Origin: Zanthoxylum bungeanum | Lineage: Eukaryota; Streptophyta; Magnoliopsida; Sapindales; Rutaceae | Assembly: GCA_019454045.1 (NCBI GenBank) | Contig: SKCR01038117.1 | Coordinates: forward strand, 1-64,000 | Direction: 5' to 3' | Length of the DNA: 64,000 bases | Part shown: piece by piece, positions 6,301 to 52,978 of the stretch | Position numbering within the stretch: position 1 is the first letter of the stretch | Layout: the number at the start of each line of letters is the position of its first letter | Position numbers and translations under genes: made by a program | Notes under the pieces: model-generated | The model's input: only the letters and a program-made list of their open reading frames with translations | Told to the model about the DNA's origin: nothing | The model's database searches: none

Positions 6301-6321
6301 CGGTTCTTATGTATTAGAAGA

Positions 6322-7577: not shown

Positions 7578-7619
7578 AACGGCGACTCTCGTCCCATTTC
7601 CGACACGCAGGTCAATCTC

Positions 7620-14215: not shown

Positions 14216-14221
14216 GTTTCT

Positions 14222-14736
14222 TCGGGTATGGAGACACAACCGCGAGGCATCGGGTATGAGGTTTAGCATGCCGGGTATGGCACTCCGGGTATGGAGATAT
14301 TACTGCGACACTCTGGGTATGGAGACGCAACCGCGAGGCCTCGGGTATGAGGTTTAGCATGTCGGGTATGGCACTCCGAGTATGGAGATATTACTGTGAC
14401 ACTCTGGGTATAGAGACGCAACTGCGACGCCTCATTTATGAGGTTTAGCATGCCGGGTATGGCACTCCAGGTATGGAGATATTACTGCGACACTCTGGGT
14501 ATAGAGACGCAACCGCGATGCCTCGGGTATGAGGTTTAGCATGCTGGGTATGACACTCCGGGTATGGAGATATTACTGCGACACTCTGGGTATGGAGATG
14601 CAACCGCGATGCCTCGGGTATGAGGTTTAGCATGCCGGGTATGACACCCCGAGTATGGAGATATCACTGCGACACTCTTGGTATGGTGACGCAATCGCGA
14701 CACCTCAGGTATGGGGTTTAGCACGCTAGGTATGGC
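14222..14736 (+). repeat. Minisatellite, exact 91-bp period
   Basis: The landmark GGAGACGCAA (with variants) recurs at 14230, 14321, 14412, 14503, 14594 and 14685, exactly 91 bp apart with no indels. Each unit itself contains several GGGTATGG words. Because 91 is not a multiple of three, protein coding is unlikely. The array sits just before the 3' LTR of G1. Confidence 0.93.
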
Positions 14737-14873: not shown

Positions 14874-17749
14874 TGTAGGCACTACATTTTGCATATAAGT
14901 CCCGATGATGAGTCTTGTACAGAGGCATTACTCTTTAGGTTGCGAAAGTCTTGGGAAACGAATGTCGGAAGGGGAAATTCAGAATAAGTATGTCATCAGA
15001 TTCAATTCACATGTTCACTGCTTTCGTTCGTGCTGCGTTTGTGAACACGTTCGAACGCCAATCAGATTGCGGGCGTTCGTGCAGCGTTCAAATAGGCATT
15101 CGAACGGTGTCAGTACTTCTGGTTTTGTTGCTAGCCTCACGCCCAAGCCCATTTAGCCCACCAAAATCCACCCAAAAATGATTAAAACATTTAAAAAAAA
15201 TAATTAAAATAATATCCTTCCTAAATTAAATAAATCACATCCCAATCTAAATAATTCACATACCTAAATAACAAATCAAATATATGACCTTCCCAATCAA
15301 ACCAAATCTCCTCCCTAACTTAAGAAGATTTTTCCTTGTGAGACAATAATCAATATTCCCCCCATAATTACTTGATCCATTCCTATTCAAACCTTAGAAA
15401 CCCTAGCCTTTTCCTATAAAAAGAAGCCTAAACCAACCTTTCACACCCTGGCACATACATACAAATCACAGAAAATTCTGCAAAGCATTAGCACCCAAAA
15501 CTCTCCTAGCATCTCAAGCCCAACACAAGAAACAACAAACAAATAATTCCCCTTCTCCTCTCTCGGCAATAGCCGAATACTCATCCCTCAAGACCCCCTC
15601 CATTTCCGCATAAAATCAGCCCATTTACCTCATCAAAACAGTCCCCAGACCACACCATAACACCACCGAAAATCATCCTTAACAGTAGCTGAAACGACAA
15701 AAAATAGTGAACAAAATTTGCACTTTAAAACCCTTAAATCACCGCAAAACAGCAGTAAAACAGCAGCAAAACAGAGGAAATGACAGCTCAAACACTGAAG
15801 CAGTGAACGAGAGCAGTGGACCAGTGAACCGGAGGAATTACGGAGCACCAACCCTTCCGACGGCCGTGTGACGCACTTTCGAGAGACGACCTAAGAGGTT
15901 AGACCTGAGGGCAACCCTTTTTATTTATTCTAAATCTTTTTTGTTGTTTATTAGAATTCCCTCGCATGAGAGTCATTTATTGATATATGTTGTGGTCCTT
16001 GAATGAATGAAATATGTGTTCTCTCTTGTGGTATATCGGATGGAAACCCGGACGTAAATTCCGTAGCCGAATCCGAATGGACGGTATTGCGGTCTGCACT
16101 CGGGACACAATGCCACATATCACTTGAGAGATTCACACATTTTGTTTCATCCAACCTTGTATTCGAGCATGATTGGGTTGCTAGCATGTTATTTATCTTT
16201 TAAGCATGATTTATTCGTTAGTATGCTATTGCTTTCTGCATGTTTCTTATTTGTGCATGATGATATAGTGCGTATGGGCTAACTAGGGTAGATTAAAGGT
16301 CCTCTATTCGAGGGAAATGCCTAAAATGCTACATTTTCCATGATGTTTTGCCGCGCCGGACGGAGTATGTTTGATTGAATATGAGATATGTTTAATCGAG
16401 CATACGAGGTCCTATATTATTGTTGTCTTTATTTTATATGCATGGTAACATAATGCTCATGGGCTAACTAGGGTGGATTAAAGGTCCTCTATTCGAGGGA
16501 AATGCCTGAAGGCTACCTTTACCACGATGTTTTGCCGCGCCTTTTATTATGTCATTTACCCTTTGCATATTATTGCTTTATTTACGCATGCATTGCATTC
16601 TTGTGCGCATGGGCTAACTAGGGTGGATTAAAGGTCCTCTATTCGAGGGAAATGCCTAAAAGGCTACCTTTTCCATGATATTTTGCCACGCCGGACGAGG
16701 TGCACCCGATTGAATGTGAAATATGTTCCATCGGGCACACGAGGTCCTACATTATGGATTTGCTTATCTATGTATGTGTTGCGTCGTCTATCATGCATCA
16801 TGTCTTGTCCCGTTCGAACGCGTTCTTGAACGCTATACGAATGCGAACCTTCTGTTTACCGTTCGAACGCTTTTACGAACGCTACTCGAATGCGTATGTG
16901 TTTTCTTTGTTTTATCATGCATCAGGTCTTGTCCCGTTCGAATGCGTTCTCGAACGCTATACGAACACGAACCTTATGTTTACTGTTCGAATGCGTTCTC
17001 GAAGGCTATACGAACGCGAACCTTCTGTTTACCGTTCGAACGCGTTTACTAACGCAACTCGAACGCGCACGTATCTTCTTTGTCTTATCATGCATCAGGT
17101 CTGGTCCTGTTCGAACGCGTTCTCAAACGCTATACGAACGCGAACCTTCTATTTTCCGTTCGAATGCGCACACACTGGACAGATTCCTTTATCATGTTTC
17201 ATGCATGTTTGTTCTCCTAGTCATTCCCTTCCCTATCATATGTTTAGTTAGCTCTCGTCAATATTTATGCACTTAATTGCCTCTCTTTAATATGCATGCT
17301 TATACAATCATTGTCCATTTGCGTTTCCATGATCATCAATGTAATGCGTTTGTGAAATTATGTGTTTATCGTTATTTCAATCTACTTTTATGCATGCAAG
17401 CTTAGGCATAGGTTATATGCAAATAGGTTATAGGCAAACATAGATACGAGCTTTGTTTCTATGCATGTGAACTTAGAAATAGAATACCCTCGGGAATGTA
17501 TGTTGCTAGATTCGATTAAATTATTACACAAATCACATCATTACAAGTGGCATAAGTATGAGACCATTCCGAACCCAATGGTTTGAGGTCTTCCATTGCG
17601 AGGGGTGAGTGCGGCCTTAAATCTGTTTCCCGGTTCACACCGGGTGGCGACTCCATATTATTTCTCCGGTTTAGTTCCCCCGCGGGCTACTCCGTACTCC
17701 AAACCGGGCCGCGAGCCCGGAACAACGTCATCAACATCTATGTCCTACA
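14874..17749 (+). repeat. G1 3' LTR (2876 bp)
   Basis: Begins TGTAGG and ends CCTACA, a perfect terminal inverted pair. It contains three copies of a conserved ~48-bp word starting GGGCTAACTAGGGT (16276, 16461, 16611) and a CpG-rich region of TTCGAACG palindromes. Much of it matches 61512-64000 in reverse. It is followed by CAGGC and then Copia fragment C5, not by a PBS, so it is a 3' LTR. Confidence 0.82.
16805..17170 (+). repeat. CpG-rich TTCGAACG repeat block in the G1 LTR
   Basis: Degenerate units built from CGTTCGAACGCGTT and CTATACGAACGCGAACC, with repeated self-complementary TTCGAACG. The long open frames here (up to 183 codons) come from the repetition, and I do not regard them as genes. 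The related LTR at the right end carries a 53-bp version. Confidence 0.8.
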
Positions 17750-18756: not shown

Positions 18757-20783
18757 TGTTGGACAGTTATGACCCATAGCGTCACTATTTGTACAGATCA
18801 TGGTGTTTGTTGTACAAATTAACTATGTGACAAAGGAGATTGCTCACTTATCATTTGTGATTAGATCACTAAGAAATATAAATGATAGGAGGTCCATATG
18901 ATTAGTTCCTGGATTGAGATGATATGAGACAGTATCAATCCACGAAGGATTAATCATTAAATATCCCTAGTCAGAGTATTATCGAGATTGGACATCGATA
19001 ATGCGTAAAAGACTAGTATTACACTTGTGCGCGTTGTGAGGGCATAACAACATAGTTCTCATATATTTGGGTATAGGATACTCATGCAAGTGTAGTAGGA
19101 GGTTGTGTTTTACCGATGGTACGGAAAACAGCTTCGCTCTGGATAGACCCCTCGAATTCCATTGGTAGTATGACTATGTGTCTATGGAAGTCCAAAATCA
19201 TGGTAGGTGTATTTGGTCTTAACCTGAGACTTGCACCGCTAATACTTGCGACAATCAATATACTTTGGTTTTAGGTCGTCCAGGGCTTTAACAGGTTCTG
19301 TGTACGCCTCTGCTGGGTATATTGAGAATCATAGTGTGTTGGGTGTGATGTCAAGACGGAAGTATCACTCCAGTCATAGTGGAGATGATGGCCACGTAGG
19401 ATACGGAACTGGTTCTCTTATGTACTGCAGTCATCGGGATAAAATGACTAGGTCATGTTTATCCGATTATAGAGACTAGTTACCAGACACCCGATATGTG
19501 CTTCGTACGGGGCAGACACAATTCCAGCCCCAGGCCTAGCACGTGACATCCGATACTGGATCGAGATACGCAATACTACGTATACTACGCCTGCTATAGA
19601 TCACATATTCCTGTAAGGATATTTCTGGAGAATTGGGTAGGCATGGCGCTTTGCTAGAAGCCAACCTTGTCTTGTAAATCGGTACAAAAGTAGTACTAGG
19701 TACTTACGTGTTCGGATAGTCCGACGACCGGATTTACTGCCAACATATCCGGGGATCTCATGGGTCGCTTCCCGAAGATTCACCGATGACGTATGACTCG
19801 CACTTTATTAATCTGGGATTAATTAAATGAGAGAGAAAATTAATCTTGGATTAATTACGGAGATATTTTATCTGGGATAAAATATTAATAAAAGATAGAG
19901 AACGATTAATTTGGAATTAATCGATAAAATAATATATTCGATATATTATACGAAATTGTATTTCGACGCGGAATTAAAATTAGATTTTAATTCGGGCGAA
20001 CGAGTTAATTTAGAATTAATTCGTTGGCGACGTGAATAGTGATTTTGCTAGGCATAATTATTTAATTACGTCGCAACGGAAAATTCGTTAATTTGGAATT
20101 AGCGAACCCGAGCCTGGGAGTATTTACGAGCGCATTCGCATTTCAAATTCGAGTGCGGCACGCAAGTCACATCAAGCGTCAAATCGCTAGTCGCATCAAA
20201 CGTCAAATCATTAGTCACTTTGAGTGATGTGACAACTTGTCACTTGATTGATTGATTGATGGGAGTTGTTGGGAGCTTTTAAAGCTTGTACCTTGTTGAC
20301 TTTTTGAAAGCTTACATTTGGTATATGTTTTGATTTTAGAAAATAAATTTCAACACAACACATTTACTCTTTCTCTATCCCTTTTACACGGTTTTGGAGC
20401 CAAAACTCCTTCTTCTCACACGGTCTAATACCAATTTCTTCCTTCTGTTTTCTGGTTTACCGAGAATGAATGGAAGCAAAGAGTGATTTTTATGGCAAAA
20501 ATCAAGAGTGCTAGCTCACATCGGAGTCTTGCGAAGGTGATAGAGAAACCCACCTGTGGGTTTGGAATACCATTTGAAAAGCTTCGAGCTTCATGGATCA
20601 CCATGGCCGAATTTGGAGAAGCTGAAAAATAGTGGACTGCCGAGCATCAAGGAGGCAGAAAAAGATTTTGTTATCCACCGCATCATTCAACCGCTCGATG
20701 TAAGTATTCCGCAACTTCCTCGATGTATTCACATGTATGTTTTATGCTTGTTATTCGATCCTTGGGACTGTAGAACTCCAACA
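18757..20783 (+). repeat. E2 5' LTR (2027 bp)
   Basis: Starts TGTTGGACAG and ends CTCCAACA, immediately before the PBS. The micro-palindrome ladder lies at 19805-20112. The LTR carries a broken sense frame near 19246-19479 and an indel-free antisense frame (19601-19783) found in every copy. Confidence 0.92.
19805..20112 (+). repeat. Micro-palindrome ladder in the Copia LTR (type copy)
   Basis: Consecutive short inverted repeats, each with a 3-nt centre: ATTAATC (19807-19813), AATTAATC (19838-19845), ATATTTTATC (19863-19872), CGATTAATT (19903-19911), ATAATATAT (19929-19937), CGAAAT (19951-19956), GAATTAAAAT (19971-19980), then a 12-bp arm around TAG and a last one ending AGCGAA. Centres are TGG, TTG, TCG, TGT or TAG. 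Each listed arm is followed, after 3 nt, by its exact complement. Confidence 0.9.
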
Positions 20784-20784
20784 A

Positions 20785-20796
20785 TGGTATCAGAGC
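20785..20796 (+). other. E2 primer binding site
   Basis: TGGTATCAGAGC one base after the LTR end, complementary to the 3' end of plant initiator methionine tRNA. It primes minus-strand DNA synthesis. Confidence 0.9.
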
Positions 20797-23672
20797 GAGT
20801 AAAAGCATGAAACTTGATTTAGGGTTAAAATTGGGTAAATTGATTTTGATCATGATTTGGTTGAATTGTATGATTAAGTATGCTTAAATGATGTTGTATT
20901 GAAGTTTGATTTGATCAATTTCATGAAAATTGATTTGGAACAATTTTCCCCAAATTACATGGCTTGGCCGAATTCAAATGTTGCCCTAATGTCTTGGAAT
21001 TTTTGATTTTTGATTCATTGGATGAGTTGGAATCATGTTGGGAAAGTTGATTGTGGATTTAATTGGATTAAAACTGAATCAATTTAAAAATACCCTAATT
21101 GCCGAGACACTTAAAGCATGTAATGTGTTTGATTTTTGATAAAATGTGTTGGACATGTTTTGTTGTTAATGAGCATGATTAATTAGGCTAATTGATGTTT
21201 TGGAAATATTGATTTTGGTGATTAATTATGGAATTACACTTTGGTTAATTAAATATGAAATTTGGAATTTTGTAGTTTAATTAATTGGGCTTAAATTGGA
21301 TTTGGGCTTGTAAAGTTGTTATTGGGCTTATTGGGCTTGGTTGTACCAAGATGGGTTTAGGCAAATTGGTTGGATCCAATTGGGTCCAAAACCACATCTA
21401 TAAAGTCCAATTATCACTTAATGGACCTTTAAATTTTAATTGGGCCTAATAGGCCGAAATTGGTTTCTAGGCTTATGGGGTTATTCCTTGATTGGGCTTT
21501 GGTTATTGGGTTTGACCCAAGTTGACCAAAAGTCCACGCCTTAAAGAAATTAATTGAAAGCCCATTGGACTTTAATTAATTAACGTTGGAATCAATTGGG
21601 AATTGTTGATTGTGGATTTAATTGGATTGAAACCGTATCGATTTGAAAAATCCCCAAATTACCGAGAGTTAAAGCATGAAATTGGGTTTGATTTTTTGTT
21701 AAAATGTGTTGGACATGTTTTAATGTTGATAAGCATGATTAATTAGGCTAATTGGTGTTTTAGAAATATTGATTTGGGTAATTAATTATGTTATACACTT
21801 TAGGTTAATTAAATTGTGAAATTGGAATTTTGTGATTTAATTAATTGGGCTTTAAATTGGATTTGGGCTTGAAAAGTTGTTATTGGGCTTTAATGGGCTT
21901 GGTTGTACCAAGATGGGTTTAGGCTAAATTGGTTGGATCCAATTGGGCCCAAAACCGTTTCCATAAAGTCCAAATGCGACTAATGGACCTTAATTATTTA
22001 ATTGGGCCTAATGGGCCTAAATTGATTTCTAGGCTAATGGGGTTATTCCTTGATTGGGCTTTGGTTATTGGGTTTGACCCAAGTTGACCAAAAGTCCACG
22101 ACTTAAAGAAATTAATTAAAAGCCCATTGGACTTTAATTAAATAAACATTGGATGTTATTCGGTCTTTGAGACCCGTAACGATTAAATTTGGAATTTAAG
22201 TCGTAAAGGTTCGTTAATAAAGTGTAATATTTAATTTGGAATTAAATAGTGAATTAGTATTAAATGCAAATTGAATTGGATTTAATGTTGTAGTTTAATT
22301 TAATTCAAGAATTCGTACTTTGAGTACTTATTCGCAAAACGAGTTTGACTCGCGTAAAATCAAATCGTTGTTTGAACATTGGATGGTCATTAATTATCAG
22401 ATTAATTAATTGGATTAGATTGATTGATAACATGCTTGTGTGAATACATGGTTACGATGCATGAATAATGTATATCAGATGGATATTAGATGGGTGGGGC
22501 AATTTTGGAAATTGTTGTAATAAATTTAGAATTTATTAATTGGACCTGCGTGTCCAGCCTATTACCTCCATACTCTATGTATTTCTCTTCTCACCTATTC
22601 CCCTCAATGTAAATGAGGTTTCTTTAGAAGTGTTATGTAACGGGTAGAAGTAATACTTGTGCTAGCGGGAGAAGGGAAATGGAGAGATTTGATCTAGGAT
22701 CAATATGTTAAGTATCCATCCGCATATCATTATTATTTATTTATATGCGCCTTATTATGTGTTTAGAATGCATGTTTAAGGGTGTATGATGATGAGACCT
22801 TAACAAAGATAATAAATTGGTTGCCAATTTGCACTCGAAAAACCCTCATAAAATATTAAGCGTTTTTCCTTCCATTGAGTGATTCTTACTCAAGATCTAA
22901 GACTGGCATTGGTTTGTTGGCCAAAGTCAAGACCTTTGTCCATCGAGGATGTGTTTGAATCACGAGAGCTTTGTTCCATATCAGTGTCTTGTCCAAGTTG
23001 TGGTTTGTTGGCCAAAGTCAAGACCACTCCTTGTCCATCGACATTGATTACGAAGCTTTCCATGGTCAATGGGTTCCGCTTAACTGGGATCACTAAGTTT
23101 GTTGTGCCAAAGCCAAGGCTTAGTTGATTCAGAGGAAAAAGGTTAGGTAATATATTGGATATATTGGCATATATAAGATATATGTTTTGGACTTGGATGT
23201 CCCCCCTACTAGATCTAGGAATTGGATGGGATCCAATTGATCTTAGAGATCTACCTAATTAATTATCATACAATTTGTTGGCCAAAGTCAAGATTGTGTG
23301 ACATTTAACGGGATCCTAGCCCACTAGGAAACACGGTTTCCCGAGTACTCAACAGAGGGTTAGAGGCTCGCCGAAAAATAGTGGGAGGCAAGTATTAAAT
23401 TTGCAATATTCGTTTAATAACTTGCCATACGCGCTCAATCATAATATTATGTCAAATAAATTATTTATTAGTTGGACTAATATTTAATCGTTGTTTTAAA
23501 CAGTTGGACTGTATTCAAACTATTCATTTATAGTTGATTATATAATTGGATTATAGTAATCAATATAATTGAATTTAACCAATTAAATTATAGTTGATTA
23601 TATAGTTGGACTATAGTAATCATTATAATGAATAGTACCTAAATCGTTGATTAAATAGTTGGACTATTAGAA
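20797..23672 (+). other. E2 5' leader with tandem duplication and repeated motif
   Basis: Non-coding, AT-rich leader rich in TTGGGCTT words. It contains a ~558-bp tandem duplication, micro-palindromes with a TGG centre (22183-22199 and 22229-22247), and three copies of TTGTTGGCCAAAGTCAAG (22913, 23004, 23274), all upstream of the decayed gag. Confidence 0.8.
21040..22155 (+). repeat. Tandem duplication of ~558 bp in the E2 leader
   Basis: The word TTGATTGTGGATTTAATTGG occurs at 21047 and 21605, and the following ~550 bp, including GCATGATTAATTAGGCTAAT and GGTTTGACCCAAGTTGACC, repeat in the same order with scattered changes. E3 and E4 appear to have a single copy, so the duplication seems specific to E2. 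Confidence 0.85.
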
Positions 23673-24781
23673 TCAAGATAAAAATGAAAGATTAGTGTTT
23701 AAAACATAATCCTGGGGAAAATGTATTTAAACGACTTTAATTTTCAAATTGGGAATAAAATTTCAGGATGGTCCTGGAAACTAATAAGTTACTTTATTTG
23801 ATAAAATAACATATTAGGCCTAAGCCCGAAGTTAAGCAAATAGTAAAACATGATATTTGGAATATTCATGTGATGATAACTTTAGTGCTTAATCCATTAA
23901 GCTTGCCAAATAGACTCATTAATTTCTTAATCAGAACTAAGGATTAGATCCTTAAAGTATGATAATGAAATTGAAGGATCTTCATAAATCTATTTTAGAT
24001 CTTAGAAGTACTAAATTGCAATAGTAAACTCTTGGAGAGTTAGTGGCTATTCTCAAGGAGACAAAGTCAAAGTTTTCAATAAGGCAAGAAGCGCAAGGCG
24101 CACCTTACTTCGACATTCTAAAAGGCCAAGGCTTGGCCAAAGGCTTCTGGAATGTGGAAAATGGCAAAGGCAAAATCATTATAATCTTCTGGGAAGATAA
24201 ATGACATATCCCAAAATGTCTGCCTAAACTGTGGCAAACGGAATCGCGGAAGCGTGACTGCCGTTTGGACAAAGCAGACATGAAGGAATTGAAGACGGGA
24301 AAGGCTCTGACTTCATATATGTTTGTCATAAATATGTTCACTACTAGTATTAAAATTGGATTTTAAATACTTAGTGTGGTACATAAATATGTATTGATGT
24401 GCAGAATCTGTTATGAGCAGTATACCGACTTCAGTAGAGGTTTATCTGCGAATCGGAAACGGGACAACTGTCGCTGTTTTAATCATAGATACCTAAGTTT
24501 AGGAACTACCCTTCAGGTGTGTACTTAAATTAGGAAACTGTTATAATGTAACTAGTTTGACTAGATACATTATCTCTATATCAGGATTTAACCCGTTGCG
24601 GGTATACCTTTATATTCTAGAACACTAAAGTGTTTCATTATATAAAGATGATATTGAGATAAACACATTAGATGTGAATAACAATATTTATATTTTGAAT
24701 ATAAATAAAATCTCAAACATATAACATGACAAACAAATAGCTCAAACTGAATTAATCAGTTGAGACTTATAAGTGGCATTG
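23673..24781 (+). pseudogene. E2 gag, protease and integrase N-terminus, decayed
   Basis: Aligns by eye with E4 gag. Between TTGCAATAG and ACTCTTGGAGAG (near 24018-24032) about 197 bp of gag present in E4 (roughly 57517-57713) are missing; E3 has the same gap. The zinc knuckle is degraded (GTGGCAAACGGAATCGCGG near 24232) and the protease region follows near 24350. No frame stays open. N interrupts the integrase zinc finger at 24786. Confidence 0.75.
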
Positions 24782-24786
24782 CTGTA

Positions 24787-25453
24787 TGTGGATGCTGGAT
24801 TTTGGCCGAGGTCCACAATCGAGAATTTGTAGGTTGGGGGCACTAGCGATCCTGCAAGACAAAGGTAGAGTGAGCGGGAGTAGACTACCCACCGGTGTGG
24901 TGGGTGCCGGGGGCACTCCGACGCCCAAGTCAGTAGTATGAAATGAGCAGTAAATGAGTAAAATGTGAAAGCAAGGTTTGTTGTTACCTTGACCTCTTGG
25001 GTGGCCGTGAGGACGGTGACAGGTGTTTAAGGGAATGAGAAGCTCTGAGAGCTTGTGTCAGAGGGCAGAAGTTTGTAAGAGAGAAGTGAAGCTTGGATTG
25101 GAGAACTCTGACTTTCCCTCCCCTGTATGCTAAGTTACGTATCCTTTTATAGATTTGAAAAAGGTTGCTTTATAGTTGTAACAAAATCTGTACAAGAGAC
25201 CCACAACGTGCTGTGATTTCTGGCAATGGGCCCTCTCACATGTTTATTGTTTCTGCTTTCGGTGGGAAGATAATTTGCATGTGGGGATATATTCTTTGTT
25301 GGGGAAAAGAGAGAAAAGGTTAAATGGGTTTGTCCTTTTGTTTTTGTAAATGGTTTAGAGTTTAATAGGCTGGGTTATATTTTTGGGCCTCAACTGGTGT
25401 TGGGTTCGAAGTGAAAGGATGATTTTTCCCTTGGACCAAATTTCGCCCGTACA
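24787..25453 (-). repeat. Element N 3' LTR
   Basis: Same length as the right copy. Plus-strand ends are TGTGGATGCTGG and CCCGTACA. A TATA-like CCTTTTATA (reverse TATAAAAGG) lies at 25143-25151. Confidence 0.9.
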
Positions 25454-25599
25454 GTTTGTCCCATACTCTCTAAGTCAAGAAGCCATTGACTTGGAGAGTA
25501 ATTGTCAAGCATGTCGTATGAAGCGAAATATATGAAAATATCTGTAGGTAAAATTTTGAGTCTTGAACTTGTTTCTTTAAGAGCCATGCGAGATGTTCC

Positions 25600-28140
25600 C
25601 ACTTGATTGAACCATATGAAGGTTTAGGAGTAAATTTATTCATACTACAATGTTGTATGGACTGAGGGAAGTCCATGTCTTCATTTGACTCGATATGAGT
25701 CTATGAGGGATGTCCTCGGTCGACTGAACCAGATGAAGGTTCAAGAGTTATTTCACACGACATTGTCGTTTGGACTGTAGGATAGTCCAGGTCTTCAACT
25801 TGACTCGACATGAGTCTATGGGGGATGTCCCCGGTCGACTGAACCAGATAAAGGTCAGGAAAATCTCCATACTACTGGTCAAGGATCAGATGAGTCTTCA
25901 AATTTTTCTAGACCAGATGAAGGTCATATGTTGACTCTACTTGAGCCATGGGGGATGTCCCCAGTCCACTGAACCAGATGAAGGTTCAAGTCTTCCATTT
26001 GACTCTACATGAGCCATGGGGAATGTTCCCAGTCAACTAAACCAGATGAAGGTCATGACAATCTCCATACTACTGGTCAAGAACCAGGGGAGTCTTCAAA
26101 TTTTTCTAGACCAGATGAAGGTCATATGTTGACTCTACATGAGCCATGGGAGATGTTCCCAGTCGACTGAACCAGATAAAGGTTCAGGTCTTCCATTTGA
26201 CTCTACATGAGCCATGGGGAATGTTCCCAGTCGACTGAACAAGATGAAGGTCAGGACAATCTCCATACTACTGGTCAAGGACCAGGGGAGTCTTCAAATT
26301 TTTCTAGACCAGATGAAGGTCATATGTTGACTCTACATGAGCCATGGGGGATGTTCCCAGTCAACTGAACCAGATGAAGGTTCAGGTCTTCCATTTGACT
26401 CTACATGAGCCATGGGGAATGTTCCCAGTCGACTGAACCAGATGAAGGTTCAGGGTACACTCCATACGACGGGGAGTCTTCAATGTCGTCTGGACTAGGA
26501 GTAGTCCAGGTCTTCAACTATGTCATATGACATTGCTTGCAAATTTCAAAACCATAATCATGATAAATAAGGAAATGAGAACATTGGTACCTGTCGTCTG
26601 GAGGATTTTTCGGGTTACTTAGTCAATGACTCTTCAATGTAAGAAGCAGACTCTGTTTGACTGAAACAATGAGATATCCTTTACTTGCCTGTTGTGTCGA
26701 CTGGGCAAAAGGTTGATAATGAAGTCCCATACGGAGGATGTTTCTTTGTCTTATGTTTCAAGTCAACTATACATATTGATGAAGGTACAAGAGAGTCTAC
26801 AGATACCAGATCTGATGGATGTCTAAGAAGATTTCATTCTACAACACTTGAAGAAAGTAAATCAGAGTCTACATGACCCGATGAAGGTCCAAGAAAGTCT
26901 ACACACTCCACTATACCTGATAAAGGTACATGGGAGTCTACTCCTCCCGACCCGATGAAGGTCCAAGAAAAATTTTCATTTTACTATACTTGAAGAAGGT
27001 ACATCAGAGTCTATACTCCACATGACCCAATGAAGGTCCAAGAAAATATACACACTCCACTATACCTGAAGAAGGTACGTGGGAGTCTACACACTCCATT
27101 ATACCTGATGTAGGTACATGGGAGTCTACACACTCCATGTATAATGAAGATCCATGAGGGTCTTCATTCCTCACTCTACAGGATCTAACATGAGTCAATG
27201 ATGATCTTTACTCTACTAGACCTGAAGAAGTTCTATGAGAGTCTTTCCTTCTCATACTACTAGATCCGATGAAGGTCCAATAGACTACTTTCGAATGGGC
27301 TATCAAATGGACCTGATGAAGGTCCATGAAGGTCATCATTCATTCTCCTGATGAGGATTTATGAGACTACGGTCGAATTGACTTGATGAAAGTCAAAAGA
27401 AGTCATCACTCACTCTCCTGATGAAGGTCCATGAGACTAGGGTAGAATGAACTTGAAGAAAGCTATCAATGTCATCTCTATTCTACAAGACTACTGTCGA
27501 ATGGAGTCGTCGAATGGAACTGACGAAGGTCCATGAAGCTACGGTTGAATGAACCTGATGAAGGTCCATGTGAATCTTCATTCTACCTGACCTGATGAAG
27601 GTCAGAAGACTACGGTCGAATGAACCTGATGAAGGTTCATGAAGCTATAATCGAATGAACCTGATGAAGGTCCAAATGAATCTTCATTCTACCTGACATG
27701 ATGAAGGTCATAAGACTACGGTCGAATGAACCTGATGTAAGTCTCAGTGAATCTTCATTCTACTAGATCTGATGAAGGTCCAAGACAATTTTCACTCTAC
27801 CTATCTATGAGACTATAGTCGAATGGACCTGACAAAGGCCCAAAAGACGCCGTCGAATGAACCTAATAAAGTTCTGTGAGAATCTTCACTCTAATAGACC
27901 TGATGAAGGTCCATGAAGCTATGGTCGAATGAACTTGATGTAAGTTCAAGTGAATCTTCATTCTACCTGACCATGAGACTATTGTCGAATGGACCTGTCA
28001 AAGGTCCATTAGACACGGTCATATGAACCTAATGAATGTCTATGAGAATCACCACTCTACTAGACCTGATGAAGGTCCAAAAGAATTTTCATACTACCTA
28101 ACTTGATAAAGGTCGGTCGATTGAACCTAAAGGAGATCCA
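25600..28140 (-). repeat. Element N internal array of GATGA-centred hairpin repeats
   Basis: About 29 occurrences of GAAGGT by eye, mostly in (A/C)CTGATGAAGGT contexts. The left part is a higher-order repeat: TTTTTCTAGACCAG recurs at 25903, 26101 and 26299, exactly 198 bp apart. The middle (about 26880-27140) has a ~39-bp unit and the right part (27240-28140) a looser unit containing GGTCGAATGAACCTGATG. Many units form inverted repeats around GATGA. No open frame over about 65 codons spans it. Confidence 0.88.
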
Positions 28141-30156
28141 AGAGAGTTATTCATTCTACTAGGCAAGATCAAATATTCTCTATGTAGTATGGAGTTGGCA
28201 ATATTAAATCAACGTAGTATGGAGATGATGACTAACCTTTGATTTAGTCTGGAGGAGTTGACAATCATTCCAAGTAGTCTATGAGAGATGGGAGTTTTCC
28301 ATGTAGCCTGAAGTTGATAGCCATCCACCTTGTTGTTTGGGAATTAAATGAACAAGATGTTTTATCATCCCATACATATCGAGTGAGACCACATGAGATG
28401 ATGCTACAAGTGTTCTTGAAAAAAAAAATTGTTTGGAATAAAGGAATTACTTCAATCGACAATCATAGTATTGCGTCGAATGGACTTTTACTCATTCCCT
28501 TGCTCTTTATGAATATAATCGATGGGCTTTGCTTATCATGCACTACGTGAGTTGGTTTTGTTTTACTCATTCCCTTGCTCTTTATGAATATAATCGATGT
28601 GGGACTCTACTTAACATGCTCACATCTGATTTGTGGCGTATGACTTGGTAGGCGCGTGAGTCGATGGGTTGATTCTTTTTTATTTTCATTAAATATTTCA
28701 AGAAGCTTGGTCACATACTACTTGATTGTCTCTTGCGAGGCTACCTTGTCAAGTGGGCCATCAAAATATTTAATTAATTCTTCTTTGAGTGATAGAATTC
28801 TCAAGCTTGGGTAGTGAGCTAAGTTTGAATTATTATAAAAAGGCCATGCTTGGTAATTTTGAAATTGGTGAGTGGGCCATTCACCTTGTTGTATGTGGTT
28901 TTGTCGAGTGGGGCTCCATTTGCACTATGGGAAGAGAGCTGTTATAACTTGACTTGGCCTCACTTTATCTCCATTTTGTCGCCTGTGAGGTTCTTTTGTC
29001 GTATGAATTTTCTTTAATAGCCATGTGAGTATGGGTTTTTGATTTGTCCTTATGTATTTTGGAATTTTGTGGATGGCTTATGTGTTTTGACATTTGGTGG
29101 ATGGCTTATGCGTTTTGGCATTTGGTGGATGGCTTATGTGTTTTAGCATTTGGTGGATAGCTTATGCATTTTGCATATGCAAACTATTCTTCACGTGGCT
29201 ATATGCCTTATTTGTTTAAATTTTGGCAACTTGCATGCTTGGTGGCAACATGCATCAAATTTATGTGTGGCCTTCTAGTTTGGAACTCTTGGACACATAC
29301 GTGTATGACTGGACAAAGCAGCAGGGCCATTCGACATGTATGATATGTCATTAAATTTGCTCCACTGTGTTGGTCTCTCTTGGAACTTGGTGCTTATATG
29401 GAGGGTGCGTGTATCACTTTACAATTTTGGTTTTGTCACAAGCGGTGATCTTTGTAGAATGGGACTGCTGTTTTGAATAAAATTATATGTAGCAAATGAT
29501 GACTTCCCAAAGAAAAGAATAAACTCCATTTGATAATTCTTAGAGCTTGATCGACGGGGCTCTTGGTGCATGCATAAACAGTAGACTGTTGGGATCCAAT
29601 GAATATTGTTCCATGTTGTTCGTGAAGAACAAGAATATTTGCCGTATGAGGAATATGGGAGTTCGTGATCTTTGAGGAAGACTCCCCTGTTTATCATAGC
29701 TCACTTCTTTCAAACCGTCCCCAGTCCACTGGACCTGGTGAAAATCATATTTGAATTCCTGCATTTTCTTTTGTTTGGTGGAGGTGATTTGTTGAGCTTG
29801 GTTGATTGGAGAAATGTGATGGCTTCTTTGGTGATTAAATGGATGGTCGCTTGATAGTGGATTTTCACTTGCCATATTCTTGAATGCTCCTAAGAGGTTG
29901 GGTTGATAAGATAGTTGAAATGACTGGTAGCCTCACACCTTTGAATTGCTGAAGAATGAATGTTCCAGATACTATTGGAGATAAGTAATGGAGTTTTACA
30001 TGGATCAATTTTCATCTTCCATTGATTGTAACTGTTTTGTATAGTGGCTAATTGTGCCACCACAGGGTCTGGTGTCTGTCTGTTGCATGAAGTTATGGAT
30101 AGTTATGTTTGTAAGGATTGTAGACTGAGGGGTCTTTGCTAACTATGAATCGCTAA
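28141..30156 (-). other. Element N leader-side interior, no gene recognised
   Basis: Unique sequence between the array and the PBS. It includes four units of a 28-bp repeat (GGATGGCTTATG at 29071, 29099, 29127 and 29155, the last as GGATAGC). A 111-codon minus frame (29540-29875) begins about 300 bp after the PBS but matches nothing I recognise. Confidence 0.6.
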
Positions 30157-30178
30157 GGCCCCACGGTGGGCACCAAAT
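30157..30178 (-). other. Element N primer binding site region
   Basis: On the minus strand, directly after the 5' LTR, TTGGTGCCCACCGTGGGGCC. Similar GCCCACCGTGGGGC words follow the 5' LTRs of some plant Gypsy elements. The priming tRNA is not identified. Confidence 0.55.
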
Positions 30179-30845
30179 TGTGGATGCTGGATTTCGGCCG
30201 AGGTCCACAATCGAGAATTTGTAGGTTGGGGGCACTAGCGATCCTGCAAGACAAAGGTAGAGTGAGCGGGAGTAGACTACCCACCGGTGTAGTGGGTGTC
30301 GGGGGCACTCCGACGCCCAAGTCAGTAGTATGAAATGAGCAGTAAATGAGTAAAATGTGAAAGCAAGGTTGTTGTTACCTTGATCTCTTTGGGTGGCCGT
30401 GAGGACGGTGACAGGTGTTTAAGGGAATGAGAAGCTCTGAGAGCTTGTGTCAGAGGGCAGAAGTTTGTAAGAGAGAAGTGAAGCTTGGATTGGAGAACTC
30501 TGACTTTCCCTCCCATGTATGCTGAGTTACGTATCCTTTTATAGATTTAAAAGAGGTTGCTTTACTGTTGTAACAGAAGCTGTACATGAGACCCACAACG
30601 TGCTGTGATTTCTGGCAATGAGGCCTCTCACATGTTTATTGTTTCTACTTTCGGTGGGAAGATAATTTGCATGTGGGGATATATTCTTTGTTGGGGAAAA
30701 GAGAGAAAAGGTTAAAGGGGTTTGTCCTTTTGTTTTTGTAAATGGTTTAGAGTTTAAAGGGATGGGTTATATTTTTGGGCCTCAACTGGTGTTGGGTTCG
30801 AAGTGAAAGGACGATTTTTCCCTTGGACCAAATTTGGCCCGTACA
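30179..30845 (-). repeat. Element N 5' LTR
   Basis: 667 bp, TG...CA, adjoining the PBS on the minus strand. Followed by TTGTA, the right half of the target duplication. Confidence 0.9.
30535..30543 (-). promoter_or_regulatory. Candidate TATA box of element N
   Basis: Minus strand TATAAAAGG, about 300 bp into the 5' LTR. The same word is kept in the other LTR at 25143-25151. Position suits a U3 promoter; no expression evidence. Confidence 0.5.
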
Positions 30846-30850
30846 TTGTA

Positions 30851-31281
30851 TGGGACACAATTTAAACAAGACTCGTATATACACACTTTCGAATAGTGGA
30901 TACTAGGACAAATTTGATTCTATTCAAATAAAGTCTACGAATCTAGTTTATTGGGCAAGGTGCCTAAAACACCTTTACTTGGTAAAAGTGTAAATGCCAC
31001 CGATCTATTAGCCCTAGTTCATAGTGAAGCAAGTGGGCCCATGTCTAGCTAGGCTAGAGGTGTATATGAATATTTCGTGACCTTTACGGATGTGGCATCG
31101 CGTTATGGTTATGTGTTTCTTTTGAAACACAAATCGGAAACTTTTACAGTTTCGACACGAAGTAGACAAACAGATCGGCTAAAGTATTAAATCATCACGG
31201 TTAGACGATGATGAAAAACTTAAGCAATAAGTTTCTAAAATACTTGAAAGAGTATAATATTCTTTCAAATGAGGACTCCTC
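30851..31281 (+). pseudogene. E2 integrase, middle part
   Basis: Continues the zinc finger interrupted by N and runs into the catalytic core (the words for YGYV and KHKSET are recognisable near 31100-31145). It is frameshifted with short deletions. It ends at the TCCTC duplication that borders X. Confidence 0.75.
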
Positions 31282-33334
31282 TGACCGGCGTAAACACACA
31301 CGTATAACGCAAGCGCACGTATCGTTCAAGTAGTATAAAAATATCGATCCCACGAGGACTTAATATCTAAACTATTATTTTATGAGGTCAAATGATACTA
31401 ATATCTAACAAGTTGATTGATTGATTTGAAATGGTGACGATTCTAAATTTAAAAGCAAGTAAATAAAATAGTCGAAAATAGTTTTAAGAAAATTCAATAT
31501 TAAAAACTATCTAGGATTGTGATTTCTTCCAATATCATTTTAAGATGAAGTGGTTATCTTAAAGTTGGGTAATATATTGATTTATTAACCTGGAACACTA
31601 AATTATGTGTGAGCCTCTGTCGATGGTCAGACACAAATACCCAGTTTAACCCAATTGAACCATATGTCTATGTCAACCAAATTATCTGGATTCATTAAGT
31701 TTAAGTTCCAATTATGGCTACCCCCGCCCGACAGGTATATTCCTATCCTGTAAGGAAATTTATTAAAGGGTTATCTATCCTCAAGGAAGATCGTGGGCTA
31801 TTGAGTCTAAGGCTGAACCTAAAATCCCCATGTCTAGTTCATTTTAGATTTACCAGATCAATTTTATTAATGGCCAATTAATGAAAAAGCATTAAGATTA
31901 AGACTCAATAAATAAATCTTTATATTACCCAAACTATAATCTAACCTTATAAAACGGTGATATTGGATTCATCACAACCCCAGATAACTAATTTAGTTCC
32001 AACACATAACTAGGGCTAGTAAAAACTTGAAAATAAGACATAAAGTAAAAATGCGGTAAAGTAAATACTGAAAAGTAAATTACAATAAAATAAAATGCTA
32101 AGGTAAAGGAATTACTTTTACTACTACTAATTTAGATATCTCCCATAATATAATATATAAACTTGTGATAACATTACCAACCAGCCATATAGGCGGTAAC
32201 CTGATTAAGTTAAATTAAGTCCAACTGGCCATTAAGGCGGTAAAAAGATTTGTCCATGAACCTGCCATATAGGCGGTAAGAAAGTTTAATTACCAACCGA
32301 CCAATCTGGCGGTATCCTTGATTAGTCAGGTTAAAACCAGATTAAAATGAATTACCAACCGACCAAAATAGCGGTATCCTTTTTAAGTCAATATTTTAAA
32401 TAGTGAATATATTATATTTAAGGGAGATTAATCTAAATAGCAATAGTAAAAGAATTACCTTTCACCCTAGCTGGGGAAGTTACCTCCTCATTACTGAAAA
32501 GTAAAAACTGAAAAATTAAAGAAAGAAAAGTACTGTGCGTAAAAGTAAATTGCGGAAAGTAAAAACTGAAAAGTAAAGAAAAGAAAGTGTGAAACTGGAA
32601 TTTAATTACTGAAAACTAAAAATAAACAACTAGATACAATCTTCTTATTTATTCATTAAGAATTTCAAAGAAGAAAGTATGAATTTTACAAATGAAATGG
32701 CTTGGTATTTATAGGCAAAATTTTGCCACCATCAAATCATCCATCAAATTCTCCACCAAATCCATTATTAATTTCTCCACTAATTACTCCACCAAATCCA
32801 TAATTGCTCCACTAATTGCTTATCTTGTTTGGTGTTGATTTGATAATTTTTATTAATTATTAATTAATTAATATTTTGCTTTGAAAATGATTGATAATGA
32901 CTTTTAATAATTACACTCCACACACTTCTGGATGGTTCATCAATTTCGGTCATGAAATCATCAGAATTCGAAAATATTTTCTCTTTCAAAGTTGTAGAAC
33001 TTTGAGTCTTCTTTAATCTGGCACTTGAATCAGCTCAATCCAATATCTGAGTAAAACGTTATACCCAAAATACGACAGATACACAAAATTGGAATTTCCA
33101 AAACTGCACTTCGTCAAAACGCCCTTTCAAGTTTCCAATCTCCAAAATTAAAATATCAAGTCCAATAATTGCCTTTATTTGACCAGATTTCATCCTAAAT
33201 GATTTCATTAAGACCCGATATTATTTTATCTGCAAAATAAACTAAAATATATCAAAACGTTCATAAAACCCGAGAAACTAAACAAAATATTAAGTAAAAG
33301 GGGCGGTAAATATTGATATATTTTCCGCTCATCA
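31282..33334 (-). mobile_element. Element X copy 1, probable solo LTR (2053 bp)
   Basis: Plus-strand ends TGACCGGCG...GCTCATCA, flanked by perfect 5-bp duplications TCCTC (31277-31281 and 33335-33339). A second copy with the same ends lies in E4 at 53949-55958 in the opposite orientation. Ends of TG...CA, 5-bp duplications, one promoter and no coding capacity fit a solo LTR. The terminal half near TGACCGGCG is well conserved between copies; the U3 part (about 32740-33150) differs. It interrupts E2 integrase. Confidence 0.85.
32706..32713 (-). promoter_or_regulatory. Candidate TATA box in X copy 1
   Basis: Minus strand GCCTATAAATA. The same GCCTATAAAT word is kept in X copy 2 at 54557-54566 although nearby sequence differs, which supports a promoter and sets the transcription direction. 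Confidence 0.5.
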
Positions 33335-35103
33335 TCCTCCCGAAACACGTCATTTTGACGGTGTGTCAGAACGGAGAAACCGAATTTTGTTAGACATGAT
33401 AAGGTTATACATGAGTCGCTCTGAGCTACCATTTCCTTCAACGGATACGCATAAACAGTGCATAACTTATTTTGAATAAGGTTCCATAAAAATCTGTTTG
33501 ACAGATTTCATATTAGATATGAACAGGAAAGAAACCGGGTTTTCTCATTCCTGATGCTTTGGGATGCTAGGCATATGTTTGGATGATACCAAACTAGAAC
33601 CCAAATCGGATAAGTGCCAAATTGTTGGTTATCCTAGGGATACCAAAGTATAATACTTATACAACTCACTAGAGAACAATGCAATTGTTGCTCGCCATGC
33701 GGTTTTCCTAAGAGGAATACCGATATGCAATGGTAAGTGGGAGGATAGTAAAACTCGATGAAAATCGGAGTAATACTATTCCAGGCACCGAATCTTAATG
33801 GAACACAAATAGTTCATCTAGGATGAAACTATACCATAATCTTCGAATACACAAGAACCACGTAAGTCGGAGAGAGTCAGAAAACAACCAGGGGTATGGG
33901 TTTCTGATCTCACCTCATAAATATGTCAATCTTTTTTAGGAACATGAACTGACTACGTATAAGGAAGTGATACAAGGTATCGACTCCCAAATATGGCAAA
34001 GTACCATAAATCCAAAATGGATTCCATGTATACCAACTATGTTTAGACACTAGTTATTGTATCACAAGGAATTGTGCCTACTGGTACTATAAGTCTTCAA
34101 GGAAGACATACATGGAAGGCAACATACCAACGTACTAAGCTAGGCTTGTAGCGAAAAGGTATCGTTATCAACATTATGTCGATTACGATGAAACCTTTTA
34201 CCCGTTGCCACGTTATATCCATTTGGACAATGCTTTCTGATGCTGCATGTTTCATTCATGAAATATGACAGCTGAACGTCAAAATCGCTTTCCTTAAACG
34301 GAAACCTTTTGGAGGATGTTTACAACATCATGACAGTTTTGTTGTACCAAAACCAGCAAACAAGGTTTGCAGGTTATTCGATCCATAGATGGATTGAAGC
34401 AAGCATTGCGTTCTTGGAACGATATCGTTTTGATGTAATCATAATAGTATATAATTTAATTCAAAACGAAAATGATTCTTGTGTATATAAGGAGGTTAGT
34501 GGGAGCGCACTGACAGTAAATGTCCTATATAATAATGACATATCATTTCTTGGAAATGACATTCCCATAAATACAATCGGTGAAAGCTTGGCTTTCATGA
34601 AAAATTCTCCGTAGAATTCTTGGGAGTAACAACCTTTATTCTAGGAATAAAGATCTACTGGGATAGATTTAAAGTTGTTAAAAGTCTCCGAGAACTCGTA
34701 CATTGAAATAAATGTACGCGACATGGTGTCTTATACGCTTTGAGCATATGGAGTCACAAACAGGCCAATCCAAGTGATAATCACTGGATTGATATTAAGA
34801 ACATCCGTTAGTATCTTAGAGAACTAATGATGATGTCTTAAACTATGGAGAAGGAGAACTTGAAGTGACTGGGATCACTGTTGCAAGTTTCCTAACCGAT
34901 AAAACGACTATAAGTCGTAAAGAATTAATGGTCTCATCAACGATCCAGATATATACTTCGATATTCATCTGATTCTTTCGGATCATACATCGTGGCGATG
35001 TGATGATCGAATAAATCGCATCAGATGATAGTCATGCAAATCCGCTGACGAAAGCCTTTTCTCAGTAATTTGAGCGAACCGTACATAGTTCGGGTGTAAG
35101 ACA
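33335..35103 (+). pseudogene. E2 integrase end, RT and RNase H, heavily decayed
   Basis: Integrase resumes after X; RT-like words appear from about 33960 and the RNase H end to about 35100. A 4-bp deletion near 34320 (GATGTTTACAACATC where E1 has GATGTTTATATGCAACAG) shifts the RT frame and is shared with E3. About 200 bp of RNase H are missing after 34918, unlike E3. The YVDD box region near 34525 is no longer readable. Confidence 0.78.
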
Positions 35104-35125
35104 CTCGAGTGACTGGCTATAGGCC

Positions 35126-35136
35126 AAGTGGGAGAT
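35126..35136 (+). other. E2 polypurine tract
   Basis: AAGTGGGAGAT immediately before the 3' LTR start TGTTGGACAG. Confidence 0.85.
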
Positions 35137-36604
35137 TGTTGGACAGTTATGACCCATAGCGTCACTATTTGTACAGATCATGGTGTTTGTTGTACAAATT
35201 AACTATGTGACAAATGAGATTGCTCTCTTATCATTTGTGATTAGATCACCAAGATATATAAATGATAGGAGGTCCATATGATTAGTTCATGGATTGAGAT
35301 GATATGAGACAGTATCAATCCATGAAGGATTAATCATTGAATATCCCTAGTCAGAGTATTATCGAGATTGGACATCGATAATACGTAAAAGACTAGTATT
35401 ACACTTGTGCGCGTTGTGAGCGCATAACAGCATAGTTTTCATATATTTCGGTATAGGATACTCATGCAAGTGTAGTAGGAGGTTGTGTTTTACCGATGGT
35501 ACGGAAAACAGCTTCGCTCTGGATAGACCCCTTGGAATTCCATTGGTAGTATGACTATGTGTCTATGGAAGTCCGAAATCAGGGTATGTGTATTTGGTCT
35601 TAACCTGAGACTTGCACCGCTAATACGTGCGACAATCAATATACTTTGGTTTTAGGTCGTCCAGGGCTTTAACAGGTTCTGTGTACGCCTCTGCTGGGTA
35701 TATTGAGAATCGTAGTGTGTTGAGTGTGATATCAAGATGGAAGTATCACTCCAGTCATAGTGAAGATGATGGTCACGTAGGATACAGAACTGGTTCTCTT
35801 ATGTACTGCAGTCATCGGGATAAAATGACTAGGTCATGTTTATCCGATTATAGAGACTAGTTACCAGACATCCGATATGTGCTTCGTACGGGGCAGACAC
35901 AATTCCAGCCCCAGGCCTAGCACGTGACATCTGATACTGGATCGAGATACGCAATACTACGTATACTACGCCTGATATAGATCACATATTCCTGTAAGGA
36001 TATTTCTGGAGAATTGGGTAGGCATGGCGCTTTGCTAGAAGCCAACCTTGTCTTGTAAATCGGTACAAATGTAGTACTAGGTACTTACGTGTTTGGATAG
36101 TCCGACGACCGGATTTACTGCCAATATATCCGAGGATCTCATGGGTCGCTTCCCGAAGATTCACCGATGACGTATGACTCACACTTTATTAATCTGGGAT
36201 TAATTAAATGAGAGAGAAAATTAATCTGGGATTAATTACGGAGATATTTTATCTGGGATAAAATATTAATAAAAGAGAGAGAACGATTAATTTGGAATTA
36301 ATCGATAAAATAATATATTTGATATATTATACGAAATTGAATTTCGACGCGGAATTAAAATTAGATTTTAATTCGGGCGAACGAGTTAATTTAGAATTAA
36401 TTCGTTGGCGACGTGAATAGTGATTTTGCTAGGCATAATTATTTAATTACTACGCAACGGAAAATTCGTTAATTTGGAATTAGCGAACCCGAGCCCAGGA
36501 GTATTTGCGAGCGTATTCGCATTTCGAATTCGAGTGCGGCACGCAAGTCACATCAAGCGTCAAATCGCTAGTCGCATCAAGCGTCAAATCATTAGTCACT
36601 TTGA
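35137..36604 (+). repeat. E2 3' LTR, truncated
   Basis: Follows the 5' LTR closely up to TTAGTCACTTTGA, then stops and changes to Gypsy T sequence. About 560 bp are missing. The micro-palindrome ladder is at about 36185-36492. Confidence 0.9.
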
Positions 36605-36727: not shown

Positions 36728-38040
36728 TCAATCCTCAAACAGCTCTGGGTATTTCTCCCCAATATCCTGTTCCACTTCCCAAGTCGCATCCTGAATGTGA
36801 TGATTCAACCACATGACCTTCACAAGAAGAATACGTCTGGATCTGAACTCTTGAACATTTTAATGTACGATCTACACAAGCTTTCCTTATAAGTCTAGTT
36901 CTCGCTCAGCTTCATCAGTTGACTCTCTAAAATGTGAGAAGGGTTTGGTACATACTTCTTTGGTACAAATATATGAAACACTTTATGAATCCTTTTAAAA
37001 TCCAGTGGCATTGCCAAACGATATGCCACTCTGCCCACCTTTTCTAAAATCTCAAAAGGACTAATACAGCGCGGCGAAAACTTTCTCTTGCAACCAAATC
37101 TCAATACTCTCTCCAAATAAGAAATTTTCAAGAATACTTTATCTATAACTTGGAACTCCAGGTCATACCCCCTTCTGTTGAAAAAACTCTTTCGTCGACT
37201 CTGGTTATCTAACAGTCTCGCTCGGTTCAATCTGATCCTCTCAGTTGTCATATCCACCAAGTCTGAGCCATGAATCTGTCTATCTCCAATCTCACCCCAA
37301 CAAACAGAAGTCCTACATCTCCTCTCACGCAAAGCCTTAAATTGAGTCATGCTGATACTAGTTAAAAAGTTATGGTTGTAGGCGAACTCGATCAAATGCA
37401 AAGGTTCATCCCAACTCCCAATGAATGTCAAAACACACGATCTCAGCAAATCTTCTAACGTCTGAATAGTTTTCTCTGACTGGCCATCGGTATGAGGGTG
37501 GATTGAGGTGCTCGTAGAAATATTTGATCCTATAGTCTTCTAAAAATTTTACCGAAATGAGAAGTAAATTTGACATCTCTATCTGATACAATCAATAAGG
37601 GTACACCATGTAATCGTACAATCTGCGCCTCAAATAATTTTGCTAGTCTCCCTGGTCCCTATATAACTCGAATCGCTAGAAAATGAGCAGATCTAGACAA
37701 TCGATCCACTACTATCCAAATTGCATCATAACCCTACTGTGTCCTCGGCAGCCCTACTTCAAAATCCATCGCGATATTTTCCCATGGCCACTCAGGTATA
37801 GGTAAAGGCTGAAGTAATCCGGCTGAATGTTGATGTTCTAATTTAACCTGCTGACAAACCAAACAGCGAGATATAAACTCTGAAATCTCTCTCCATTCCC
37901 AGCCACCAAAGTCTTCCTTAGATTTTGATACATCTTGGTGCTCCCAAAATGCGTATAATAAGGAATATCATGAGCCTCATCCAAGATCTCATACTTGACC
38001 ATCCCAGTAGGTGGTATCACAACTCTATCACCAAATAGTT
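36728..38040 (-). pseudogene. Gypsy T integrase with chromodomain
   Basis: Minus strand, from about 38040 to the stop at 36728. Visible in order are the zinc-finger-side region (DEAHDIPYYTHFGSTKMYQ), the core with TDGQSEKTIQTLED near 37480, the GPF/Y-type module (SPFEILEKVGRVAYRL near 37050), the VPNPSHIL segment and a chromodomain end (DATWEVEQDIGEKYPELF near 36740-36800). Frameshifts and stops break it. Chromodomain integrases are known to target heterochromatin. Confidence 0.83.
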
Positions 38041-44130: not shown

Positions 44131-44199
44131 TCTATTTCGGACTCATGACACTTTGTCATAATAGGGAGTCGATACCTTGTATCACTTCCTCATATGTAG

Positions 44200-48643: not shown

Positions 48644-48656
48644 GCTCTTGATACCA
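48644..48656 (-). other. E3 primer binding site (altered)
   Basis: Minus strand TGGTATCAAGAGC, one base longer than the family TGGTATCAGAGC, beside the 5' LTR. Confidence 0.85.
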
Positions 48657-48657
48657 T

Positions 48658-50042: not shown

Positions 50043-50047
50043 CTTAC

Positions 50048-52964: not shown

Positions 52965-52965
52965 A

Positions 52966-52978
52966 TGGTATCAGAGCC
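52966..52978 (+). other. E4 primer binding site
   Basis: TGGTATCAGAGCC one base after the LTR end. Confidence 0.9.

Follow-up and report, generated by a model that had tools for sequence, protein, structure and literature searches.

A tandem array of short palindromes fills over half of the interior of an LTR element in Zanthoxylum bungeanum, and the two arms of its units are matched beyond what their shared core supplies. The array (25590-28160) lies in an element that we call element N, within the 64,000 nt of contig SKCR01038117.1 analysed here (the window). Covariation of the arms is probably real but modest, and is carried mainly by stem pair 5. We tentatively read the array as the palindromic 3′ minisatellite of a gene-less LTR element whose arms may have been partly re-matched by copying of one arm from the other. 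We see in it a curious variant of a familiar kind of repeat array, and not a proven RNA signal. The element is laid out as follows, in window coordinates.

24787-30845, sense on the minus strand: element N, whole, 6.06 kb with two LTRs
24787..25453, minus strand: 3′ LTR, TG...CA ends, 96.4% identity with 30179-30845
25590..26520, minus strand: left part of the array, with 115-nt, 68-69-nt and 198-nt repeats and several hairpin kinds
26760..27300, minus strand: middle part of the array, with 39/76-nt repeats, GACCC..AGGTCC alternating with the TATACCT..AGGTACA type (plus-strand letters)
27300..28160, minus strand: right part of the array, unit spacing mostly 34-37 nt, 70/71/106-nt repeats, core ACCTGATGAAGGT (plus-strand letters)
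28161..30157, minus strand: remaining interior, longest ORF at most 111 aa, no credible Pfam match among the ORFs tested, no hairpin excess
30158..30175, minus strand: primer-binding-like site, sense TGGTGCCCACCGTGGGGC, three bases past the 5′ LTR end
30179..30845, minus strand: 5′ LTR, 96.4% identity with 24787-25453
24782..24786: left copy of the target-site duplication, CTGTA, four of five bases as in the right copy
30846..30850: right copy of the target-site duplication, TTGTA, one mismatch to the left copy

Element N interrupts a copia element at 24787-30845 and consists of 667-bp LTRs around an interior of 4725 bp. A primer-binding site is recognised by TGG 0-5 bases past the 5′ LTR, followed by similarity to a tRNA 3′ end (PMC6317226), and the site in element N is assigned on the first half of this criterion, with TGG at three bases. 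Because it follows the 30179-30845 LTR on the minus strand, the element most likely reads from right to left; its sense strand would thus be the minus strand, which places the array directly before the 3′ LTR. The purine-rich stretch ahead of that LTR is weak. The sequence-only reading had described a non-coding LTR element, and the LTR pair and coding content bear this out: the longest ORF within 24787-30845 measures 111 aa, and none of the 11 ORFs tested among the 25 listed gave a credible Pfam match. Neither pol nor a TRP28-type ORF was found among the ORFs tested, including, for the latter, six antisense ORFs in 28161-30157, and Rfam gave no match at E ≤ 1 over 24700-30900. One 57-aa ORF matched a hepadnavirus Pfam model (E 0.049), but its 13 bits fall short of the 29.1 cut-off, and the match was discarded as noise. 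A second tandem array, with a 28-nt period and 4.5 copies, lies inside the element at 29049-29173.

On anatomy alone, element N is very likely a non-autonomous, gene-less LTR retrotransposon. LARD elements, which have an interior of over 4 kb without gag or pol, are presumed to be mobilised in trans. Element N shares with them TG/CA LTRs, a target-site duplication (with one mismatch) and a long interior between the LTRs in which no gag or pol match was obtained; it differs in that a tandem array makes up over half of this interior, and it is known here from one copy. The primer-binding-site and array-core patterns found no further copies in a viral contig set. The LTR-end pattern matched ten viral contigs, all phage-like (GC 0.48-0.57, long ORFs), and the five of these that were tested had no direct repeats of at least 80 nt; we regard these matches as chance. 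The LTR end presumably resembles those of Tat/Retand LTRs.

Tat-lineage Ty3/gypsy elements (Ogre, Retand) carry family-specific tandem repeats between pol and the 3′ LTR (PMC11963269). Such repeats are common near the 3′ LTR in the Tat lineage (PMC7004042) and before it in Retand elements, where they adjoin it in about half of the recently active copies (PMC11963269). Element N likewise has tandem repeats by its 3′ LTR, given the orientation from the primer-binding-like site, with several periods and higher-order repeats, and its LTR length falls within the Retand range of 315-1194 bp (PMC11963269). These likenesses suggest a placement in the Tat lineage. In contrast, its interior measures 4.7 kb vs 7.4-12.9 kb in Retand (PMC11963269), and it lacks pol and the antisense TRP28-type ORF among the ORFs tested. 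Its units are also palindromic, whereas the main text of PMC11963269 uses neither 'hairpin' nor 'secondary structure'. That source describes the origin and possible function of Retand 3′ tandem repeats as unknown. Palindromic units with measurable arm covariation offer a testable link either to the origin of such repeats, through hairpin strand transfer, or to a function, as an RNA signal, and bear on the continued mobilisation of gene-less plant elements and on the abundance of tandem repeats before 3′ LTRs.

The array unit is a short imperfect palindrome of ~35 nt whose plus-strand core resembles ACCT-GATGA-AGGT. Tandem Repeats Finder gives periods of 37-39, 68-76, 106, 115 and 198, nested within one another. 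Hairpin kinds in the left part include TGAACC-AGATGAA-GGTTCA, GACTC-GATAT-GAGTC, TGGGG-GATGT-CCCCA and TGGACT...AGTCCA. All seven hairpins named in the sequence-only reading are present:

27307..27327, minus strand: ATGGACCT-GATGA-AGGTCCAT (plus-strand letters)
27620..27640, minus strand: ATGAACCT-GATGA-AGGTTCAT (plus-strand letters)
27378..27396, minus strand: TTGACTT-GATGA-AAGTCAA, differing at three stem pairs from the ATGAACCT/AGGTTCAT unit
27587-27605: CTGACCT/AGGTCAG
27930-27948: TGAACTT/AAGTTCA
27102-27116: TACCT/AGGTA
25970-25988: TGAACC-AGATGAA-GGTTCA

They had been offered as hairpins with a constant centre and co-varying arms. The hairpins and a modest covariation stand, but a special constancy of the centre does not. 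The examples, though real, were also picked: among the 14 units of the largest type, plus-strand stem pair 5 reads A-C in 6, G-C in 5 and A-T in 3 (tallies read by eye from the unit listing).

Perfect inverted repeats (arms of at least 6, loops of 3-9) are in excess over shuffled sequence in the left part (9 vs 2.3, 25590-26520) and the right part (7 vs 2.0, 27300-28160), with no excess in the middle part (1 vs 1.3, 26760-27300) or the other interior (3 vs 3.9). Non-overlapping repeats with arms of at least 5 and loops of 3-8 number 15 vs 6.4, 8 vs 3.4 and 9 vs 5.2 (p = 0.053) in these left, middle and right parts, and 7 vs 10.6 in the interior control. In single periods, free of repeat inflation, the corresponding counts are 3 vs 0.7 (p = 0.010), 2 vs 1.3 (p = 0.40) and 1 vs 0.4 (p = 0.36). 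This excess does not set the array apart, because the remaining window shows a similar or larger one: by the first definition, 160 vs 50.0 to the left of element N and 263 vs 67.0 to the right.

For the analysis of the arms, 50 in-register units were taken from a profile built without pair information; those at 25889, 27455 and 27187 score under the best of 20 shuffles (11.1), and those at 27350 and 26778 barely over it. All 50 entered the arm shuffles, within-type shuffles, mutual information and tree-aware nulls. The slid-register covariation and RNAalifold used an alignment of 45 units, omitting 25615, 25889, 26312, 26778 and 27187, and its results favour pairing because three of the omitted units pair at just 2 of 9 positions.

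Much of the pairing is what a plain minisatellite would give, in which an ancestral palindromic unit was duplicated and decayed and covariation reflects the descent of subtypes, with no process acting between arms. Across eight stem positions in the 50 units, 258 of 400 pairs are Watson-Crick, and shuffling the right arms gives 225 ± 6.5 (maximum of 2000 shuffles, 248). Because column make-up alone thus yields 225 of the 258, most array pairing is inheritance from the repeated palindromic unit. By position, stem pairs 2 and 5 stand out against this shuffle and pair 8 slightly; the others do not. The remainder is harder to reconcile with descent. Shuffling within unit types leaves 258 pairs vs 242.8 ± 4.0 (reached in 0 of 5000), the excess lying in outer pairs 5-8 (103 vs 91.3 ± 3.1, p = 0.0002) and not in inner pairs 1-4 (155 vs 151.5, p = 0.096). 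A first tree null, in which some root states were ill-chosen, gave too little pairing (179) and was replaced by four tree-aware nulls. These produce 182-199 Watson-Crick pairs vs the 258 observed, and summed covariation of 0.45-0.63 vs 1.33, a value reached by 2, 0, 0 and 0 of 300. By pair, 5 is clear (p 0-0.007) and 8 (0.023-0.1) and 2 (0.047-0.077) are borderline, on a tree of 35-nt units that is poorly resolved. In the 45-unit alignment, the covariation score of 0.368 exceeds shuffles (0.217; 0 of 500) and slid registers (at most 0.136), as does the number of paired cells (0 of 500), although a consensus-derived structure beats slid registers by that fact alone.

Other measures side with the plain minisatellite. 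Corrected mutual information over 595 column pairs ranks stem pair 5 third and pair 2 eighteenth, with the other six 157th or lower; correlation is also seen in many column pairs outside the stem, and the mutual information summed over the stem pairs was not above the first tree null (p = 0.11). The measures least inflated by relatedness, double-change pairs (6 vs 5.0, reached by 127 of 500 shuffles) and further pair types (19 vs 16.4, 36 of 500), are not above shuffles in the 45 units. Eight comparisons of related repeats gave 56 changed ungapped stem-pair cells, 43 of them one-sided, 4 two-sided and unpaired, and 9 two-sided and paired. The 9 paired doubles exceed the 2.5 expected (p = 0.001) in comparisons that are not independent, each stem pair being counted in both directions and copies being shared between comparisons. 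Two of the eight are significant alone, both with one common copy, and six are not. The earlier claim that arm complementarity exceeds the shared core therefore holds, within types and on trees, though the excess is modest; set against a minisatellite null, the summed covariation rises above it but the least-inflated measures do not reach significance. We judge a plain minisatellite unlikely, though not markedly so.

Alternatively, the array may be a set of selected RNA hairpins, with UCAUC/ACAUC-type loops bound by the capsid or nucleocapsid of a partner for packaging, or used in dimerisation. Dispersed stem-loops with a common loop motif and varying stems serve as packaging signals in the assembly of ssRNA viruses (PMC6281560). 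In the array, the stems do covary, modestly and with some measures not significant, and the covariation peaks at stem pair 5, whose states are GC, AU, UA and GU. The plus-strand A-C at this pair, the commonest plus-strand mismatch, is a G-U wobble on the sense strand; there, sense G-U is kept (11 vs 13.6 expected) and A-C is lost (1 vs 5.1), an imbalance that leans toward RNA. In context, 26 of 50 units fold on the sense strand vs 20 of 50 on the antisense strand, and strand-specific hairpins with a constant loop occur in the copia family of the same window (see below).

These points are offset by the loop and by the array as a whole. Parsimony changes per column are 5, 7, 8, 1, 4 in the loop, 2, 5, 7, 3 and 6, 9, 4, 1 in the four inner positions of each arm, and 8, 12, 11, 11 and 8, 11, 10, 10 in the outer stem. 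The loop is thus less variable than the outer stem but no more constant than the inner stem, contrary to the earlier claim of a constant GATGA centre. The raw G-U surplus is a composition effect, since arm shuffles over all pairs expect 55.0 sense G-U vs 47 observed; sense A-C stands at 20 vs 29.3. The two mismatches are nearly equal in tree steps on the sense strand (Watson-Crick to G-U 16-19, to A-C 15-18) and in single changes between related repeats (plus-strand G-T, sense A-C, 13; plus-strand A-C, sense G-U, 11). Wobbles in the left-array TGGGGAATGTTCCCA hairpins lie on the strand opposite to sense. RNAalifold gave no consensus structure for the 45 units. Folding energy was rejected as support for an RNA signal, the array being no outlier in the window: of 638 strand-windows of 200 nt, the 40 most structured all lie elsewhere. 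With ~50 redundant units, selection on each would also be weak. Unlike viral packaging signals, then, the array has no clear RNA-strand signature or special loop conservation; the signature is mixed to absent. A selected RNA hairpin array is quite unlikely, and the array seems to lack a selected RNA function. The sequence-only interpretation survives in part: the arms match above the core, but the effect is modest and little favours RNA selection over a DNA-level process.

Short palindrome clusters, one with a 3-nt spacer, are also known from Sirevirus plant LTR elements (PMC10760457, PMC2829016), in variable, fast-evolving regions (PMC5311732). In maize these clusters show a small-RNA excess, and CHH methylation peaks at predicted hairpin regions of maize elements (PMC10760457). 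By analogy, the palindromes of element N could be DNA-level cis-regulatory or host-recognised sites, which we consider very unlikely: Sirevirus palindromes are mainly found in the LTR ahead of the TATA box (two elements have them at the ENV gene start as well) and follow a family consensus, mostly built on a CGG-CCG core, whereas the element N array stands outside the LTRs, by the 3′ LTR, with another core, 5-7-nt centres and no single motif kept past the core, and its 5-9 bp arms would be poor Dicer substrates.

We return to a palindromic minisatellite with arm-to-arm copying, which we favour while placing it somewhat short of an even chance. The array would be the 3′ tandem-repeat region that precedes the 3′ LTR in Tat/Retand/Ogre-type plant elements, and each duplication of its palindromic ~35-nt unit would yield another potential hairpin. 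Atop the inherited pairing, a modest extra process would keep the arms matched; likeliest, one arm is now and then rewritten from the other by hairpin-templated template switching, at reverse transcription or repair. A hypothesis cited in PMC7004042 derives tandem repeats from two copies packaged together, between which illegitimate recombination or an abnormal strand transfer takes place; transfer within one hairpin, as may have happened here, is our extension of it. Template switching has been proposed, with support, to create and restore stems in RNA genes, and would account for arms that change in pairs about a centre (PMC8794818). Copying on DNA or cDNA fits somewhat better than RNA selection because the residual matching shows little strand asymmetry; against it, the 11 sense G-U vs 1 A-C at stem pair 5 lean to RNA. 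The footprints reported as enriched for template switching are multi-pair restorations and, though few (69), loop inversions alone (PMC8794818). In the array, by contrast, double changes are single-pair save for one two-pair branch on one of the four trees, and an inverted loop (the reverse complement of GATGA) occurs in 0 of 50 units. Because the multi-pair footprint is absent, we hold the mechanism of arm matching with moderate confidence only, as much less certain than the anatomy, and a single copy of element N does not tell which way each change went. The literature searches turned up no description of a hairpin array with covarying arms inside a gene-less LTR element.

A stronger case of the constant-loop, covarying-arm pattern is found in the copia elements that fill the window, in which gag (PF14223) and reverse transcriptase (PF07727) were recognised in two ORFs. 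Examples of the copies are as follows.

18757-24786, plus strand: copia copy
30846-36604, plus strand: copia copy
51028-61511, plus strand: copia copy
3196-9955, minus strand: copia copy
40881-50056, minus strand: copia copy

Searching for loci that code for relatives of the copia reverse transcriptase fragment gave no hits. Beyond element N, 104 inverted repeats combine arms of at least 7 with a spacer of three bases exactly, vs 3.2 in shuffled sequence. In 15 oriented copia stretches, T[GAT]G triloops with arms of at least 5 occur 186 times on the sense strand vs 2.5 shuffled, while their reverse complements occur 0 times vs 1.6; other triloops there number 84 vs 26.6. The T[GAT]G sites have free stems and are spread over LTR (71), leader (54) and gag-pol coding sequence (61). 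The 15 stretches are homologous copies rather than independent samples, and beyond element N the triloops fall into 102 groups.

Across copies, pairing-preserving double changes account for 31 states in 27 of the 87 groups with a homologue, and G-U stands at 35 vs 20 for A-C (p = 0.058). Among changed cells at arms of at least 6, such doubles make up 27 of 117 in triloops and 7 of 170 at spacers of 5-8; the contrast is not absolute, with 10 of 72 at spacer 4 and 8 of 64 in other three-base loops. Maize copia (Sirevirus) elements include a palindrome whose spacer is three bases long (PMC10760457). A literature search found no paper that mentions triloops and hairpins together with retrotransposons and Copia, which is thin evidence of absence. 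If the copia pattern is true in other genomes, it would be a sizeable surprise by itself.

Sets of hairpins with a constant loop and free stems could, by a wider reading, form a distributed packaging code of LTR retrotransposons. The sense U[G/A/U]G triloops across the copia LTR, leader and gag-pol would then be one such code, and the concentrated UCAUC/ACAUC-type array of the gene-less element N would capture the capsid of a partner not found in the window. Hairpin codes would in that event be lineage-specific addresses for virus-like particles. Taken jointly, these proposals are a long shot.

Several other features were noted in the window. Tandem arrays at 16810-17168 (periods 49/173) and 62289-62527 (53/103) have common CGTTCGAACG-type palindromic motifs, and the periods of adjacent tandem arrays at 13836-14736 include 29, 52 and 91 bp. 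GC-rich perfect inverted repeats at 54139-54171 and 54509-54537 contain an identical 9-nt spacer, CAAACCCTT. A Gypsy-type fragment on the minus strand at 36895-37449 encodes a Tf2-1-like SH3 domain.
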